Shown here: one piece after another, positions 53,245-58,992 of the stretch
Layout of the letters: every line of letters starts with the position of its first letter
Numbering within the stretch: position 1 is the stretch's first letter
Assembly (NCBI GenBank): GCA_020721325.1
Contig: DYNA01000005.1
Coordinates: 1 to 59,178, forward strand
Origin: Paludibacter propionicigenes
GTDB taxonomy: Bacteria > Bacteroidota > Bacteroidia > Bacteroidales > JAIFNL01
DNA: 59,178 nt
Direction: 5' to 3'
Translations under genes and position numbers: made by a program
The notes under the pieces: generated by a model
What the model was told of the DNA's origin: nothing
What the model saw: only the letters and a program-made list of their open reading frames with translations
Databases searched by the model: none

Positions 53245-53616
53245 ATGAAAATGGGCATAATTGAAATAGAAGGCATGGAATTTTATGCTTTTCACGGGCA
53301 TTTTGAAGAAGAGCGAATTGTGGGAAACCATTTTTTTGTAGATTTAAAAATGGAAGTAGAAACCGAAAAAGCTTCTCAAACCGACAATTTAGAAGATGCC
53401 GTAAATTACCAAACAGCTTACAATCTGATAAAGAGCGAGATGCAAGAAAAATCGTATTTATTGGAGCATGTTGCACAGCGAATTTTGAACCGTTTATTTG
53501 AAAATTTGAATGGGTTAAGCTCTGCTTCTGTAAAAGTGCGCAAAATCAATCCGCCAATGGGCGGTGTGATTAAAAGCGTCAGTGTTACGCTTTCGCAAAA
53601 AGCTAATTTACAATAA
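53245..53616 (+). CDS. folB: Dihydroneopterin aldolase
   Basis: A folate-pathway enzyme that cleaves dihydroneopterin to a hydroxymethyl pterin and glycolaldehyde. The 123-residue protein has IEIEGMEFYAFHGHFEEER (start block), the conserved Tyr in DAVNYQTAYNLI, the LLEHVAQRIL block and the late Lys in VRKINPP. The gene sits 2 nt behind the NUDIX gene, in one operon. It converges on the THEP1 fusion gene with a 24-nt gap. Confidence 0.93.
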   Translation: MKMGIIEIEGMEFYAFHGHFEEERIVGNHFFVDLKMEVETEKASQTDNLEDAVNYQTAYNLIKSEMQEKSYLLEHVAQRILNRLFENLNGLSSASVKVRKINPPMGGVIKSVSVTLSQKANLQ

Positions 53617-53640: not shown

Positions 53641-55350
53641 TTAGACTTTGCCAATCAATTGGTTTAATATTATTTGATTGGCAGTTTGGGTACTTATTTT
53701 TTGTAAATCAATTATTTTATAATTTTTTAACTTCCAAAATTCGATAATTTCTGCTAAAAAAGTATCGCGTACAATCCATAAAAATATAAAATTTTGATAT
53801 TGAAGCAATTCATTTATTTCATTTGCCCAAGCCTTACCGGTAAGTTCTAAATGTCCGATTTCATCTATTATAACTAATTGAATATCAGTATTTTTAACTT
53901 TTCGCAAACTTTCTTTTCCAAATTTAACACCTTGCGGGAAAATAAAAAATTTACCGATTTTTTCATAATCATTTTCTCCACTTTCTCTTAAAAAAATTTC
54001 TGATTTATTTGTTTGAATATCAACAACATCGTAACCAATTCTTTGTTGGTTTTCTACCTGCTTTTGGGTAAAAATACCTCCAATTTTAATACTGTTTTGA
54101 ATAAAAAAAGGAATAATTTGTTTAACGAAAGTAGTTTTACCAGAATCTTTTTTTGAAGTAATAATAAATATTTTCGGTTTAGAGAAATCTTCGGAAAGTT
54201 CTCTAAAACGCATTTCTGCGAAAGCAATCAATTGCGAAACTATTTGCGTAGGATTTTTTATAATTATTTTAAAATCAGGAATATTAGAAATGACTTGCGG
54301 TAAACTTTCCGATGCAATTTCGAGCGCAAAAGGAAGCTTTTTAAAATAAGTTTTTGCAAAAAAAGAGCTAATTTTGGGATTGTACAATTCTGTTCCCAAA
54401 ACAGAAAAACCCAGTATTAAAAGCGTAGCTCTAAAATTCATTTCTATACCTATTAAAAAAGCATCGGTTAAAGTTTTCGACTGCAATTGACTGAATACAA
54501 AGGAAGTAAGCATAGTTAAAGCCACAAAGAAAATCCAAAATTTTGGTCGTAACAATTGCCGCAAAGCGCGTTTGTACTTTAAAATCCATATCAAAACAAT
54601 CAAAACACTTGTTGCAACCCAAATTTTCCAATTCAAGAGCGCAATAGTAAGTAAAGAGCTTATAATGAACAATATATTCAAAAACAACCAACACAAAGAA
54701 TAATCATTTTTTACCGGATTATTATTTTTCTTATCTTGCTTTTCGATAGTTTGTGTTTTAAAGATTAATGGCTGTGAAAGTATTTTCTTTCCGGTTCTAA
54801 TACCTATAATTGCCGAAACAATTCCAAAAAGAGCGTAAATTGAAAACAATGTTAAAATAGGCAACCATAATGTATCAAATTGTAAATTTAATTGTTTTTC
54901 GGTAAATTTCATTATACTTTTATATAACTCAACTATATTAAACCCATAAAAAATTAAAAAGTTTATAATTTTTTGAGCAAAACTCCACGAAATAGCTAAA
55001 ATAGAACCAATTACAAAACCAAAATAGTTTTTTCCCAGAAGTCGGACTGAAAATTCTAACAACAAACTTTCTACAAAAATGGCTATCATTGGTCCAAAAA
55101 TAACGGCACTCGGCGACATGGTTTTCATTATGGCACAAATTAATCCGGCACGCCAAAAAAGCCCTTTTTCTTTCCAAACAAAACTCACCGAAATGAGAAT
55201 TACAACACCAATTGCCGTTAAAATACTTCCTGAAAAAGGAATGCGCAAATTATGCAAAAAACTGCCCAAAACTATTTCTGACGAAGCCCAAACCGTTCCT
55301 ATAATGGCAGATTTAAGCCACTTTTCATCTATTTTTGAAAGTTCATTCAT
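53641..55350 (-). CDS. Single-chain ECF-like membrane transporter fused to a THEP1-type NTPase
   Basis: A 569-residue protein in three parts. Residues 1-190: five or six membrane helices in an ECF S-component-like pattern (SSEIVLGSFLHNLRIPFSG, MSPSAVIFGPMIAIFVESLLLE). Residues 218-390: a second membrane unit with the shape of a CbiQ/EcfT component (GIEMNFRATLLILGFSVLG, KLPFALEIASESLPQVI, then a helical coupling-like stretch). Residues 393-569: a THEP1-type NTPase with Walker A SKKDSGKT (399-406; the usual first Gly is Ser) and Walker B LVIIDEIGHLEL (492-503). I infer one polypeptide that binds, transports and powers uptake. The ATG overlaps the stop of the DUF364 gene by 8 nt, so translation is coupled. 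Confidence 0.75.
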   Translation of the reverse strand: MNELSKIDEKWLKSAIIGTVWASSEIVLGSFLHNLRIPFSGSILTAIGVVILISVSFVWKEKGLFWRAGLICAIMKTMSPSAVIFGPMIAIFVESLLLEFSVRLLGKNYFGFVIGSILAISWSFAQKIINFLIFYGFNIVELYKSIMKFTEKQLNLQFDTLWLPILTLFSIYALFGIVSAIIGIRTGKKILSQPLIFKTQTIEKQDKKNNNPVKNDYSLCWLFLNILFIISSLLTIALLNWKIWVATSVLIVLIWILKYKRALRQLLRPKFWIFFVALTMLTSFVFSQLQSKTLTDAFLIGIEMNFRATLLILGFSVLGTELYNPKISSFFAKTYFKKLPFALEIASESLPQVISNIPDFKIIIKNPTQIVSQLIAFAEMRFRELSEDFSKPKIFIITSKKDSGKTTFVKQIIPFFIQNSIKIGGIFTQKQVENQQRIGYDVVDIQTNKSEIFLRESGENDYEKIGKFFIFPQGVKFGKESLRKVKNTDIQLVIIDEIGHLELTGKAWANEINELLQYQNFIFLWIVRDTFLAEIIEFWKLKNYKIIDLQKISTQTANQIILNQLIGKV

Positions 55351-56152
55351 TGATTATACAAATTTTTTCGGCACCATATTCAAATGTATGATAACCTGCG
55401 CCGCCCTCGCTAATTACTTTAAACATCATTTCGGGCTTGGTTATTTTTACAGCACCAATTATTTTCACATTTTTTTTAAATAAAATATCGGGTATAAAAC
55501 TGCTCGAAGGTCCGGTAACGATGATTTGAGTTTGAGGTTTTATATATTTCAATAAATCATCTAAAGTATTGTTTACCAGAGTTGAACCAGTAATAATTAC
55601 AATATCTGAAATGGGTAAAATTCGATTGTATTCGTTGGCTGGCACAAAATATTTTTTATCTTCCGGCAAAAAAATATTTTCATTAAATTCCAAAACATGC
55701 AATTGGTGATTTGATTTTGAAAGTTTCTGAATGTACGAATGAAATGCGCCCACCATAGTTATCGTTTTGTCTGAAACAGAAGAAATTAAATCGATAGGGT
55801 CGGTATTTGAAAGAATTTTATAATCCGGCCTTTTTAAAAATCGAGACGAAATAGCATTTATAACCGCAACTTGCAAAGTAGTAATAAACTCATTGTTTTT
55901 GGTCGTTTCGAGTAAATCCAATACACGCGAACCAGCCATTTTTCCTGAAGTAAATTCGCCAAAATCCCGCATTTCTTTTTTACAATGTACCTGATTATAA
56001 TTTGGAGTAACCGTACTCGAAATTCCATAACTTTCGTCAGAAAGTTTCACTGCCGTCATAAAAACACCCATGCGCACATCGACAAGATGCAACGACTCGA
56101 TATAGGCTTTGTGCTTGGTTTTTAATAAGTTAATTGTTTCTTGCAATATCAT
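55343..56152 (-). CDS. DUF4213/DUF364 putative heavy-metal-chelation protein
   Basis: A 269-residue soluble protein. The N-terminal DUF4213-like part (about 1-95, VDVRMGVFMTAVKLSDESYGISST) and the C-terminal DUF364 domain (about 115-260, TITMVGAFHSYIQKL, SDIVIITGSTLVNNTLDDLL, VTGPSSSFIPDILFKKNVKIIGAV) match the family proposed, from structures, to chelate heavy metals. It often lies near metal or molybdate transporters in anaerobes. Here it overlaps the THEP1 fusion gene and lies downstream of a TonB receptor. A -7-like box (CAAAATTA on the plus strand, 56207-56214) suggests an additional promoter. Confidence 0.85.
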   Translation of the reverse strand: MILQETINLLKTKHKAYIESLHLVDVRMGVFMTAVKLSDESYGISSTVTPNYNQVHCKKEMRDFGEFTSGKMAGSRVLDLLETTKNNEFITTLQVAVINAISSRFLKRPDYKILSNTDPIDLISSVSDKTITMVGAFHSYIQKLSKSNHQLHVLEFNENIFLPEDKKYFVPANEYNRILPISDIVIITGSTLVNNTLDDLLKYIKPQTQIIVTGPSSSFIPDILFKKNVKIIGAVKITKPEMMFKVISEGGAGYHTFEYGAEKICIINE

Positions 56153-56392
56153 TTGAAACAGTTTGAGTGCGTGAATTTGTAAGTTTTGAAATTTCTAAAA
56201 AAAACACAAAATTACGCATTTTTTACGAAAAAAATAAATGCTTTTTTAATTAATTTGCACTATTTTTCCGCAGTTTAATCTACTTTGTAGGTCTGTTTGT
56301 TGAATTTATAAATGTTTTTCAAAAAAAACAAGTCAGAGAAACGAATTTGGTCATTTTTTTAAAATTCTTTTACGAACAATTTACGCTGTTAA

Positions 56393-58372
56393 TTATTTTT
56401 TTAAATTAAATATTAAGGAAAAATAAAAATTTCTACCTTCTTCGGGATAACCTTCAATTAAGGTATAATTTTTATCAAAAATATTATTTATACCGGCTTG
56501 TATTTTGAAATATTTTGCAAAAATATACGAAATTTGAGTGTTAAAAACTACAAATTCGGGCGAAATAGTTCCATAACTTGTACTAAATCGGTCGGAATTG
56601 TATTCGCTTGAAAAAACAAATTCGATTTTTTTTACCGGAAAATAATCGATGTAAGCAAAAAATTTATGGTTCGGAACATCGGTAAATTCAATATCGGCAT
56701 TGGTAATATTGTTGCGTTCGATGTAAGTATAATTGGCATTGAACATTAAATTTTGCAAAATTTGAAAATAAATAGAAATGTCTGCGCCATAAAATTCAGC
56801 TTTCCCGGTGTTTTGCATTTGGTAAAGCCCCTCTTGTAAATTGTTAACCAATTGTATAGTATTATCAATTTTTGAATAAAAAACGGCTGGTTCTACTATA
56901 AATTTATCATTAATTTTGATTTTTGAAGCCCATTCATAATTCAAAGCTCTTTCCGATTTTAAATCGGGATTTGGAATGGCAATGCCTAATTTGTATGAAT
57001 ATCTGTCTTTCATGGTTGCAAAACGAGTCTTATGCGCTACCGTAAAACTTAAATCTAAGTGATTAGTAAATTGGTAAAAAGCAGCCAATTGAATATTTGT
57101 TGCTGAATTTTTATTTTCGGGATACATTGAAATAACTTCCGAGCTTGAATTGTAATCTTCTGCCTGAATGCTATTTCGCAAATTGTAACTTAATCCGGGA
57201 ATTAATTTTAATTGGTTACCGAGCGAAAAAATATCTTCAACACCAAAAGAAAAAGTATTATCGGCAAAGTGCCTAATCGGTTCACCTTCATTGTTTTCGC
57301 GGTGCAAATCGTATTTATAGTGTCCGGCAATTTTTACCACATTATTTTTAATCAATTCAGTTCCTATTTCAATATTACTACCATAAGAATAATCGTTGTG
57401 ATAGCTTGTAAATGAATAATTTTTATTTTGTGTTGAATAAGAATCGTTATCGAAACTTTTTAAAGTATTTTTAAAATTATCGAAAAAAAATCGGGTTTTT
57501 AAATAACTCTTTTCGGCAATGGTCGTTTTTGAAATAAAATAAACACTTTGTTTGTCCCAAACAGGCCATTGCCAATATCTGATTTTAACCGAAGCATCAT
57601 CACCTAAATAAATTGGATTTCCCTTTTCGCCGTGTTGAAAAACGTAATTAATGGAATATTCATCGGTTGAATTGGGAGTAAAACCTACTTTTACGCTAAT
57701 TTTATCGTCATTTCTGAATGAATTGTCCCTTTTCCAATCCATTTCATTCTTTGTAGTATCAAAATCTCGCGAAATTTTGTAAAAATCTCGATTAAACTTT
57801 GAAAAATGGGCTTGAAAATAGAATTTTCCCCTTTTACTTGCTATATTTGCGCTGGTAGAATAGCCTTTTCCGGTCAAAAGTCCGGCTTTTAAATTTATTT
57901 CGAGCTTTTCAGTGGGTTTGGAACTGATTAAATTAATCGCCCCGCCAATGGTATTTGCGCCAAAAAGTATGGAAGAATAGCCTTTTGAAATCTCTATTTT
58001 CGACAAATCGGAATTGGTAAACCGCGCCAAATCTACGTAACCATCGTAAGGCACGTAAACGGGAATGCCATCTACAAAAACCGGAACACTTCTGAGGTCA
58101 AAACCACGAAGGTAAATTGTACTTTCATTTCTTGCTCCAATGTTTACCAGCGTTGCGGAAGGTAAAATGCTTATTGAATTAGCCACATCTATCGTATTCA
58201 ATTTTTGCATTTCCGATTGTGTTACCGATTTTTCCAAAATGCTTTCTGAAACAACCACTTCACCAAGTTCGTAAACTTTCACGTTATTAAAAGTTGTGTC
58301 GATTGTATTTTGCGCTTTTACTTTTGAAAGAATCAATATAAAAACCAGTAAAAAAAATAAATAGCTTCTCAT
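56393..58372 (-). CDS. TonB-dependent outer-membrane receptor
   Basis: A 659-residue receptor with a Sec signal (about 1-20). A TonB-box-like EVVVSESIL (about 38-46) precedes the plug domain (about 47-170; STIYLRGFDLRSVPVFVDGIPVY, GANTIGGAINL). A 22-strand-type barrel follows, ending in FYFSLIFNLKK. It is short and lacks a SusD partner, as in BtuB- or metallophore-type receptors. Upstream DNA carries ModE-like half-sites. Together with the ModE-like gene and the DUF364 and THEP1 genes this points to uptake of a metal oxyanion or chelate; the ligand is inferred. Confidence 0.9.
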   Translation of the reverse strand: MRSYLFFLLVFILILSKVKAQNTIDTTFNNVKVYELGEVVVSESILEKSVTQSEMQKLNTIDVANSISILPSATLVNIGARNESTIYLRGFDLRSVPVFVDGIPVYVPYDGYVDLARFTNSDLSKIEISKGYSSILFGANTIGGAINLISSKPTEKLEINLKAGLLTGKGYSTSANIASKRGKFYFQAHFSKFNRDFYKISRDFDTTKNEMDWKRDNSFRNDDKISVKVGFTPNSTDEYSINYVFQHGEKGNPIYLGDDASVKIRYWQWPVWDKQSVYFISKTTIAEKSYLKTRFFFDNFKNTLKSFDNDSYSTQNKNYSFTSYHNDYSYGSNIEIGTELIKNNVVKIAGHYKYDLHRENNEGEPIRHFADNTFSFGVEDIFSLGNQLKLIPGLSYNLRNSIQAEDYNSSSEVISMYPENKNSATNIQLAAFYQFTNHLDLSFTVAHKTRFATMKDRYSYKLGIAIPNPDLKSERALNYEWASKIKINDKFIVEPAVFYSKIDNTIQLVNNLQEGLYQMQNTGKAEFYGADISIYFQILQNLMFNANYTYIERNNITNADIEFTDVPNHKFFAYIDYFPVKKIEFVFSSEYNSDRFSTSYGTISPEFVVFNTQISYIFAKYFKIQAGINNIFDKNYTLIEGYPEEGRNFYFSLIFNLKK

Positions 58373-58448
58373 AAATATTTCTTTTTTAAAAAAAAACGTT
58401 ATATACTAAAATGAATAATGACAAACAAAAAAAATATTCATCTTTCTT

Positions 58449-58507
58449 CGTTATGTTGATTAATGAATAACGGTGCAAAATAAAAAATAAAAAAAATAAC
58501 GAACAAA
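58449..58507 (-). promoter_or_regulatory. Receptor promoter with ModE-like operator half-sites
   Basis: Read on the minus strand, TTTG (58507-58504), a 20-nt spacer and TTATTTTG (58483-58476) form a near-consensus promoter. CGTTAT (58449-58454) and ATAACG (58467-58472), 12 nt apart, form an inverted repeat over the predicted start of transcription. Another ATAACG lies in the spacer (58496-58501) and CGTTATATAC lies in the leader (58397-58406). Inverted CGTTAT-type half-sites are characteristic of known ModE operators as I recall them. The arrangement suits repression. Confidence 0.6.
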
Positions 58508-58644
58508 TTTTTTCAAAAAAAATACGATACTTTGTAAAAAAGAAAAGTGTAAATTTATTTCTAAACGTTTACAATTGAAACTTTTATTCTTATGCAATTA
58601 CTTTATAATTAAACCTTTGAAATAAATTATCGTTTATAGTATAA

Positions 58645-58992
58645 CTAAATGTCGTTCAATTTTTTTGTTTGTTCGGTTAAAAAAACTTCAAAATCGGATT
58701 GTAAATTTTTATAGGTAATTAAAATTTTTTCACCAAATTCTGTTATTTGAGCTATTCCGCCTTCTCTCCCACCCCGCTTGAGTATAACTACTTGTTTATT
58801 AGAAGCTTTGTTCATTTTGTCAATGTTAATCCACGCTTGTCGATACGACATTTTCATTTCGGCAGCGGCTTTTCTAAGCGACCCTAACTGTTTAATTCGC
58901 TCTAATAACTCGATTTTACCGTTTCCGATAAATGAATCGTCATTGCAGTTAATCCAAATTCTGCCTACGATTGAAAAATTTTCTTTACACAT
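58645..58992 (-). CDS. Short ModE-like transcriptional regulator
   Basis: A 115-residue winged-helix protein matching the DNA-binding domain of ModE (IELLERIKQLGSLRKAAAEMKMSYRQAWINIDKMN, then the wing LKRGGREGGIAQITEFGEKIL). The C-terminal molybdate-binding (Mop/TOBE) domains of E. coli ModE are absent. Such short forms occur in several phyla. It is upstream of the receptor gene in the same direction, and possible target sites lie just downstream in the intergenic region. Candidate promoter: CAAAAATA on the plus strand at 59115-59122. Confidence 0.85.
   Translation of the reverse strand: MCKENFSIVGRIWINCNDDSFIGNGKIELLERIKQLGSLRKAAAEMKMSYRQAWINIDKMNKASNKQVVILKRGGREGGIAQITEFGEKILITYKNLQSDFEVFLTEQTKKLNDI

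Follow-up and report, generated by a model that had tools for sequence, protein, structure and literature searches.

A gene cluster of Paludibacter propionicigenes encoding a THEP1-fused membrane protein, a TonB-dependent receptor and a DUF364 protein is a candidate salvage system for the molybdenum cofactor

Cluster layout and operator

The stretch of DNA analysed here (the window; 59,178 nucleotides of contig DYNA01000005.1) comes from a Paludibacter propionicigenes genome of 4.36 Mb and 91% completeness (GCA_020721325.1), and carries four minus-strand genes that are proposed to form a salvage uptake system for the molybdenum cofactor (Moco) or molybdopterin. These genes encode a ModE-like helix-turn-helix (HTH) regulator of 115 residues (58645..58992), a TonB-dependent outer-membrane receptor of 659 residues (56393..58372), a two-domain, enzyme-like DUF4213-DUF364 protein of 269 residues (55343..56152) and a fusion of a membrane protein with a THEP1 NTPase of 569 residues (53641..55350), the first 8 nt of which lie within the DUF364 gene. 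An earlier note on this DNA had placed the same four open reading frames (ORFs) at these positions, and its gene families and overlap were all borne out.

The family assignments differ in strength. Both domains of the DUF364 protein score over the Pfam cut-off (DUF364, E 6e-40; DUF4213, E 3e-10), and its relatives in the Protein Data Bank (PDB) are 3npg and 3l5o. The receptor has a Plug domain over the cut-off (PF07715, E 5e-17); its barrel is matched solely by full-length NCBIfam receptor models below their cut-offs, the best of which are heme, siderophore and vitamin B12 receptors. The regulator matches TIGR00637 (ModE_repress) with E 6e-22 and 77.5 bits, below the curated cut-off of 98.5. 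In Pfam and NCBIfam its HTH region alone was matched, and the C-terminal molybdate-binding (MOP/TOBE) domain is absent. An Rfam search found no Moco riboswitch in the cluster.

A palindrome of the form CGTTAT-N12-ATAACG (CGTTATTCATTAATCAACATAACG; 58449..58472, minus strand) lies 77 nt before the receptor start and is the sole match in the window, where 0.04 would be expected. Its half-sites resemble those of the Escherichia coli ModE site. The motif scan also placed a second copy with one mismatch (CATTATTCATTTTAGTATATAACG; 58397..58420, minus strand) 52 nt from the exact one. Among related loci (L numbers; genomes have G numbers), the motif recurs ahead of receptor or DUF364 genes in L036, L067/L073 (a single locus), L070, L072, L074 and L125. 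Two copies in tandem are present in both L070 and L072, and L090 has a one-mismatch site. The palindrome was found before 8 of 62 receptor or DUF364 genes compared with 5 of 1335 other genes (p = 1e-8, with a few near-duplicate loci counted twice).

Convergent to the fusion, at 53245-53616 on the plus strand, is an ORF whose sequence alone suggests a FolB-like protein (dihydroneopterin aldolase). It has no clustering counterpart in the related loci and its position is probably a coincidence.

The fusion protein and its neighbourhoods

The C-terminus of the fusion (residues 393-569; 53641..54174, minus strand) is a genuine THEP1 NTPase. Residues 395-551 match NTPase_1/THEP1 (PF03266) over the cut-off with E 3e-22, and the domain contains Walker A (DSGKTT) and Walker B (IDE) motifs, of which SGKTT and IDE are conserved across relatives. 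Foldseek on the whole fusion recovered THEP1 alone, through human NTPCR (2i3b, E 4e-6) and Aquifex THEP1 (1ye8, E 6e-5). Known THEP1/NTPCR members are soluble, single-domain proteins, whereas the present domain is joined to a polytopic membrane protein, and one in another genome is joined to MobA. The latter fusion is a single ORF (L065:7907-9091) in G076, which lacks the membrane protein; queA lies on one side of it and a molybdoenzyme operon of the psrABC type on the other. Because a THEP1-MobA fusion exists, product trapping or cofactor nucleotide chemistry such as dinucleotide formation is as plausible a role for THEP1 as that of a motor. As a separate observation, queA (queuosine synthesis) stands directly 5' of THEP1, THEP1-MobA or MobA at L063:1614-3438, L065:6711-9091 and L164:3-1604.

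The rest of the fusion was modelled by AlphaFold2 with a mean pLDDT (predicted local distance difference test) of 87 for the full chain and 82 for the membrane part alone. In the model, the N-terminal half (residues 1-192; 54775..55350, minus strand) has six long helices within residues 9-192. The second half (residues 213-392; 54175..54714, minus strand) has four transmembrane helices and then further helices, some shorter and some long, that connect to THEP1. Alignments of 29-81 relatives showed invariant residues in the N-terminal half (W11, G18, W21, E25, G29, S30, H33, N34, P38, G63, R67, K76, P80, S81, P87, M88 and I91) and in the second half (R307, E321 and P325). Conservation peaks in the first 100 residues (W11, W21, E25, H33, N34, R67, K76 and S81, among others), as would be expected if the N-terminal half bound the substrate.

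The earlier note had read the two halves as S- and T-component-like parts of an energy-coupling factor (ECF)-type transporter, a reading that gained weak support. Sequence searches of Pfam, NCBIfam and the PDB returned nothing for residues 1-392, even with 30 divergent members as queries, and none of these matched PF02361 (EcfT/CbiQ). Foldseek on the membrane-only model gave nothing significant (best E 0.05, with no ECF chain among the best 50 matches). Profiles were also compared with those of CbiQ and CbiM-like proteins from Bacteroidota loci, the CbiM identity of the CbiQ neighbours being read from sequence. The N-terminal half scored 21.5 against CbiM, a value matched by 2 of 200 block-shuffled controls, and the second half scored 21.3 against CbiQ, which none of 200 equalled, in an alignment collinear over 80 columns. 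The crossed comparisons were null, with 173 and 181 of 200 shuffles as high. Set against this weak but specific likeness are HHalign probabilities of 1.9% for CbiM and 2.3% for CbiQ, the Foldseek result, and one of ten unrelated membrane families that outscored CbiQ against the second half, over a shorter stretch. The profiles thus suggest, but do not prove, that one chain holds an ECF-like S-T pair.

The cobalt ECF transporter CbiMNQO is comparable in layout, the fusion having an S-like six-helix half followed by a T-like half, and a cofactor-type substrate, as proposed here, would be typical of ECF systems. The fusion differs from it in holding both putative components in one chain with a THEP1 NTPase and in having no ECF match in Pfam or NCBIfam. 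Furthermore, no EcfA/CbiO ATP-binding cassette (ABC) ATPase pair occurs in the cluster or recurrently adjacent in related loci, in agreement with the earlier note. Since this pair is missing and the NTPase is THEP1, the fusion is not filed as an ECF member.

Relatives of the fusion are encoded in 483 stretches of a genome-contig collection, and the best 80 of these, which were retrieved, have titles almost all from Bacteroidota. Single-chain relatives with 26-62% identity occur in many families. With so many relatives, neither a chance reading frame nor a faulty assembly can account for the fusion. Split forms also occur, in which the membrane part stops before THEP1 and a separate THEP1 gene is adjacent (L052) or elsewhere.

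The neighbourhoods of 107 distinct loci tie the fusion to molybdenum metabolism, as had been claimed from the window. At 33 loci, at least one molybdenum-linked gene (ModE, MobA, MocA, XdhC, xanthine-dehydrogenase-family, PsrA-like, NarG, MoeA or MogA) lies within five genes of the fusion, where a few per cent would be expected by a rough estimate based on how many of these genes a genome has; matches labelled MoaA are probably a related radical-SAM gene and do not count towards the link. DUF364 adjoins the fusion at 43 loci, and a receptor and a ModE-like relative are found near it at 13 and 11, respectively. Individual loci join the fusion or its membrane part to cofactor-finishing genes. 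L053 and L055 hold MobA and the membrane protein next to a thiosulfate-reductase-like molybdoenzyme operon, and L064 has the order THEP1-MobA-membrane gene. In L090, ModE-XdhC-DUF364-fusion stands opposite MocA and the aldehyde-oxidoreductase accessory genes DVU_1553/DVU_1556, and L091 is arranged likewise without ModE. In L036, from a genome without MoaA or MoaC, an operon runs receptor-DUF364-fusion-MoeA-MogA; the best family for its receptor, below the cut-off, is PqqU.

Retention of the membrane gene where Moco synthesis is lost

No moaA, moaC or moeA was found in the window genome, which nevertheless encodes a thiosulfate-reductase-like operon (L150) and a xanthine-dehydrogenase-family gene. 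The latter and four genes on one side of it are collinear with G002 of the same genus, and the moeA-moaA pair that follows it in G002 is absent from the window genome within a continuous contig. Relatives in the same genus use the standard Moco genes.

This pattern was followed in a panel of 99 genomes of the same order (about 97 families), which were scored for the membrane gene, MoaA, MoaC, MoeA, ModA/WtpA-type binding proteins and molybdoenzymes (PF00384 or PF02738 type). The membrane gene is present in 32 genomes, nearly all from different families. Twelve of these carriers have neither MoaA nor MoaC, ten of the twelve also miss MoeA, and all twelve encode a molybdoenzyme. Among MoaC-negative genomes of at least 90% completeness, 11 have both the membrane gene and a molybdoenzyme, none has the gene only, two have the enzyme only and 35 have neither (Fisher p = 3.5e-9). 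A tree of the membrane protein implies about seven changes of Moco-pathway state, at least six of them forced by well-supported branches, indicating that the pathway was lost repeatedly and not in one ancestral accident. A second, partly overlapping panel of 50 fusion-carrying genomes, of unknown completeness, includes 14 without MoaC. In addition, the one degenerate copy of the membrane gene, with seven in-frame stops (L060; G049:C80:49370-50444), was found in a genome that has MoaA, MoaC and MoeA and in which no molybdoenzyme was found.

The markers behave consistently in this order: of the 45 MoaC-positive genomes, 43 have MoaA and 43 have MoeA. MoaE (PF02391) was dropped as a marker, having been detected in just two of six prototroph controls, and molybdopterin synthase may be unusual in the order. 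PF00384 matches of about 1230 residues with low scores, one of them in the window genome, were excluded as NuoG-like subunits of NADH-linked complexes, judged by their neighbours and sequence. Two side observations were made on the same genomes. MoaA of the order is short, about 270 residues, with a barely recognisable C-terminal domain (L172:3200-4000, L171:7447-8247). The commonest molybdoenzyme locus of genomes lacking Moco synthesis is a conserved operon that combines psrABC (thiosulfate/polysulfide-reductase-like) with two genes for YeeE-like membrane proteins and with rhodanese-like genes, seen in L150, L153, L155, L157, L159, L161, L163, L164 and L168.

These counts bear directly on the substrate. 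The earlier note had pointed to molybdate, tungstate or a chelated metal, which would make the cluster an importer feeding the cell's own Moco synthesis. This reading is consistent with the ModE-type regulator and operator, the adjacency of DUF364 to tungstate and molybdate transporters elsewhere (PMC2954201), the prototrophy of most carriers, and the presence of the metal-insertion steps MoeA and MogA in the L036 operon. Like the cluster, ModABC, WtpABC and TupABC supply molybdenum metabolism and have ModE-type regulation; unlike them, it encodes neither a binding protein nor the permease and ATPase of an ABC importer, and is retained where Moco synthesis is absent. Metal alone would give no cofactor to the 12 carriers without MoaA and MoaC. 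Moreover, a ModA/WtpA-type protein is missing from nine of these 12 compared with two of the 20 MoaC-positive carriers, such that prototroph carriers mostly have one (18 of 20) and auxotrophs mostly do not, the reverse of what a replacement of ModABC would predict. Import of molybdate, tungstate or bare metal was therefore abandoned as the preferred explanation on the MoaA/MoaC/MoeA and binding-protein counts, and is considered unlikely.

Proposed Moco salvage and its alternatives

Since a metal importer is useless to cells unable to make the pterin, the finished cofactor or molybdopterin is preferred as the substrate. The cluster is best read as a salvage uptake system for Moco or molybdopterin, with a probability of roughly 0.6, because genomes that have molybdoenzymes but no Moco synthesis keep it, and because it combines a receptor, an ECF-like protein and links to cofactor-finishing enzymes. 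An independent hint is provided by the DUF364 structure, from whose pocket a ligand similar to flavins or pterins was deduced (PMC2954201).

From these observations we infer transport, its substrate, direction and energy source, and a role for each protein. The cofactor would cross the outer membrane via the TonB-dependent receptor, and the S-T-like chain of the inner membrane would bind it and pass it inwards, with the invariant E25, H33, N34, R67 and K76 as plausible contacts for the pterin and the negatively charged phosphate and dithiolene. The attached THEP1 NTPase might drive this step or trap the product, in line with the MobA links. The DUF364 protein could receive, protect or re-metallate the cofactor, and MobA or MocA, where present, would then convert it to the dinucleotide form for the enzymes. 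The operon would be controlled by the ModE-like repressor through the tandem CGTTAT-N12-ATAACG sites. Genomes with MobA or MocA alone would need to import the metallated cofactor; carriers retaining MoeA (G021 and G032) could import metal-free molybdopterin. A stronger version of this proposal, in which the importer is powered by the fused THEP1 NTPase and not by an ABC ATPase, is the first bacterial Moco or molybdopterin importer and thereby a novel type of energised cofactor transporter, and supports a widespread, previously unrecognised Moco-auxotrophic, cross-feeding lifestyle in Bacteroidota, is put forward tentatively and is itself rather doubtful.

Several points weigh against Moco uptake. 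The likeness to ECF components is weak, and THEP1 is not known to act as a motor. Twenty of the 32 carriers can still make Moco, showing that the system is not tied to auxotrophy, and for these salvage would save cost; cultured carriers that make Moco include Prolixibacter denitrificans and Maribellus. Two genomes of at least 90% completeness (G020 and G084) have molybdoenzymes and neither MoaC nor the membrane gene, so other routes may exist. MoaC is present in all four named isolates, and the auxotrophs found, which include metagenome-assembled genomes, comprise no named isolate. Finally, free Moco is unstable and oxidation-sensitive (PMC9793310), which makes it unclear what would circulate outside cells. 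Beside these points stands an observation on G020 (99% complete, without MoaA, MoaC, MoeA and the membrane protein), where a receptor of the same family and a THEP1 gene on its own come after narGHJI (L066); this genome possibly uses a different inner-membrane partner.

The same genes could serve the cofactor without any import, as a membrane-bound complex for Moco handling or maturation that acts as a carrier, a chaperone or an NTPase aiding the MobA/MocA dinucleotide step near the membrane. The THEP1-MobA fusion of G076, the THEP1-MobA-membrane gene order of G041, and the adjacent XdhC, MobA, MocA and molybdoenzyme operons would all suit such a complex. However, it leaves unexplained the retention of the membrane gene by genomes without Moco synthesis and the presence in the cluster of an outer-membrane receptor with its ModE-type operator, and the membrane part weakly resembles S and T transport components; a handling complex is thus also improbable.

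Uptake of another cofactor or metallophore, such as a flavin, a different pterin or a metal-siderophore, would agree with a receptor nearest to general heme, siderophore and B12 receptors, and its correlation with molybdoenzymes would then merely follow anaerobic lifestyles. This explanation is very unlikely: among genomes lacking Moco synthesis the co-occurrence with molybdoenzymes is strict, and there are operons with MoeA, MogA, MobA, MocA and XdhC. The least probable alternative is that the cluster belongs to an unrecognised Moco biosynthesis route with DUF364 as an unusual pterin enzyme, which fits its enzyme-like character and pterin-sized pocket (PMC2954201) and the unusual Moco genes of Bacteroidales (the short MoaA, and MoaE undetected in four of six prototroph controls), but not a cluster without an enzyme to replace the radical chemistry of MoaA, with an unexpected receptor and polytopic membrane protein, in a genus whose other members use the standard genes.

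Salvage of Moco or molybdopterin through this cluster would have parallels in known systems. BtuB-BtuCDF for vitamin B12 and PqqU for pyrroloquinoline quinone likewise pair a TonB receptor with salvage of a large redox cofactor, but the inner-membrane machine and the inferred substrate differ here. DUF364 proteins (3l5o and 3npg) belong to the same two-domain family as the present one, and for them metal-transport neighbours have been reported and a ligand resembling flavins or pterins has been predicted (PMC2954201); elsewhere they occur with an ABC importer, whereas here the protein is coupled to a THEP1-fused membrane protein. Dietary uptake in Caenorhabditis elegans similarly makes use of exogenous Moco, in an animal and by an unknown mechanism (PMC9793310), and according to a 2022 paper exogenous Moco uptake had been neither examined nor observed outside this species (PMC9793310). 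Outer-membrane proteins of the type 11 secretion system (T11SS) have been suggested for possible molybdopterin uptake (PMC12282271). In the searchable literature, no description was found of a bacterial Moco transporter, of Moco auxotrophy or salvage in bacteria, or of THEP1 with ECF transporters.

The prevailing view is that almost all cells using Moco also synthesise it. The repeated tie between genomes that keep molybdoenzymes without Moco synthesis and one undescribed membrane family makes bacterial Moco salvage directly testable. If true, salvage would explain how sulfur and nitrate respiration and purine oxidation operate in such bacteria, and would offer candidate functions for two long-unsolved families, THEP1 and DUF364.

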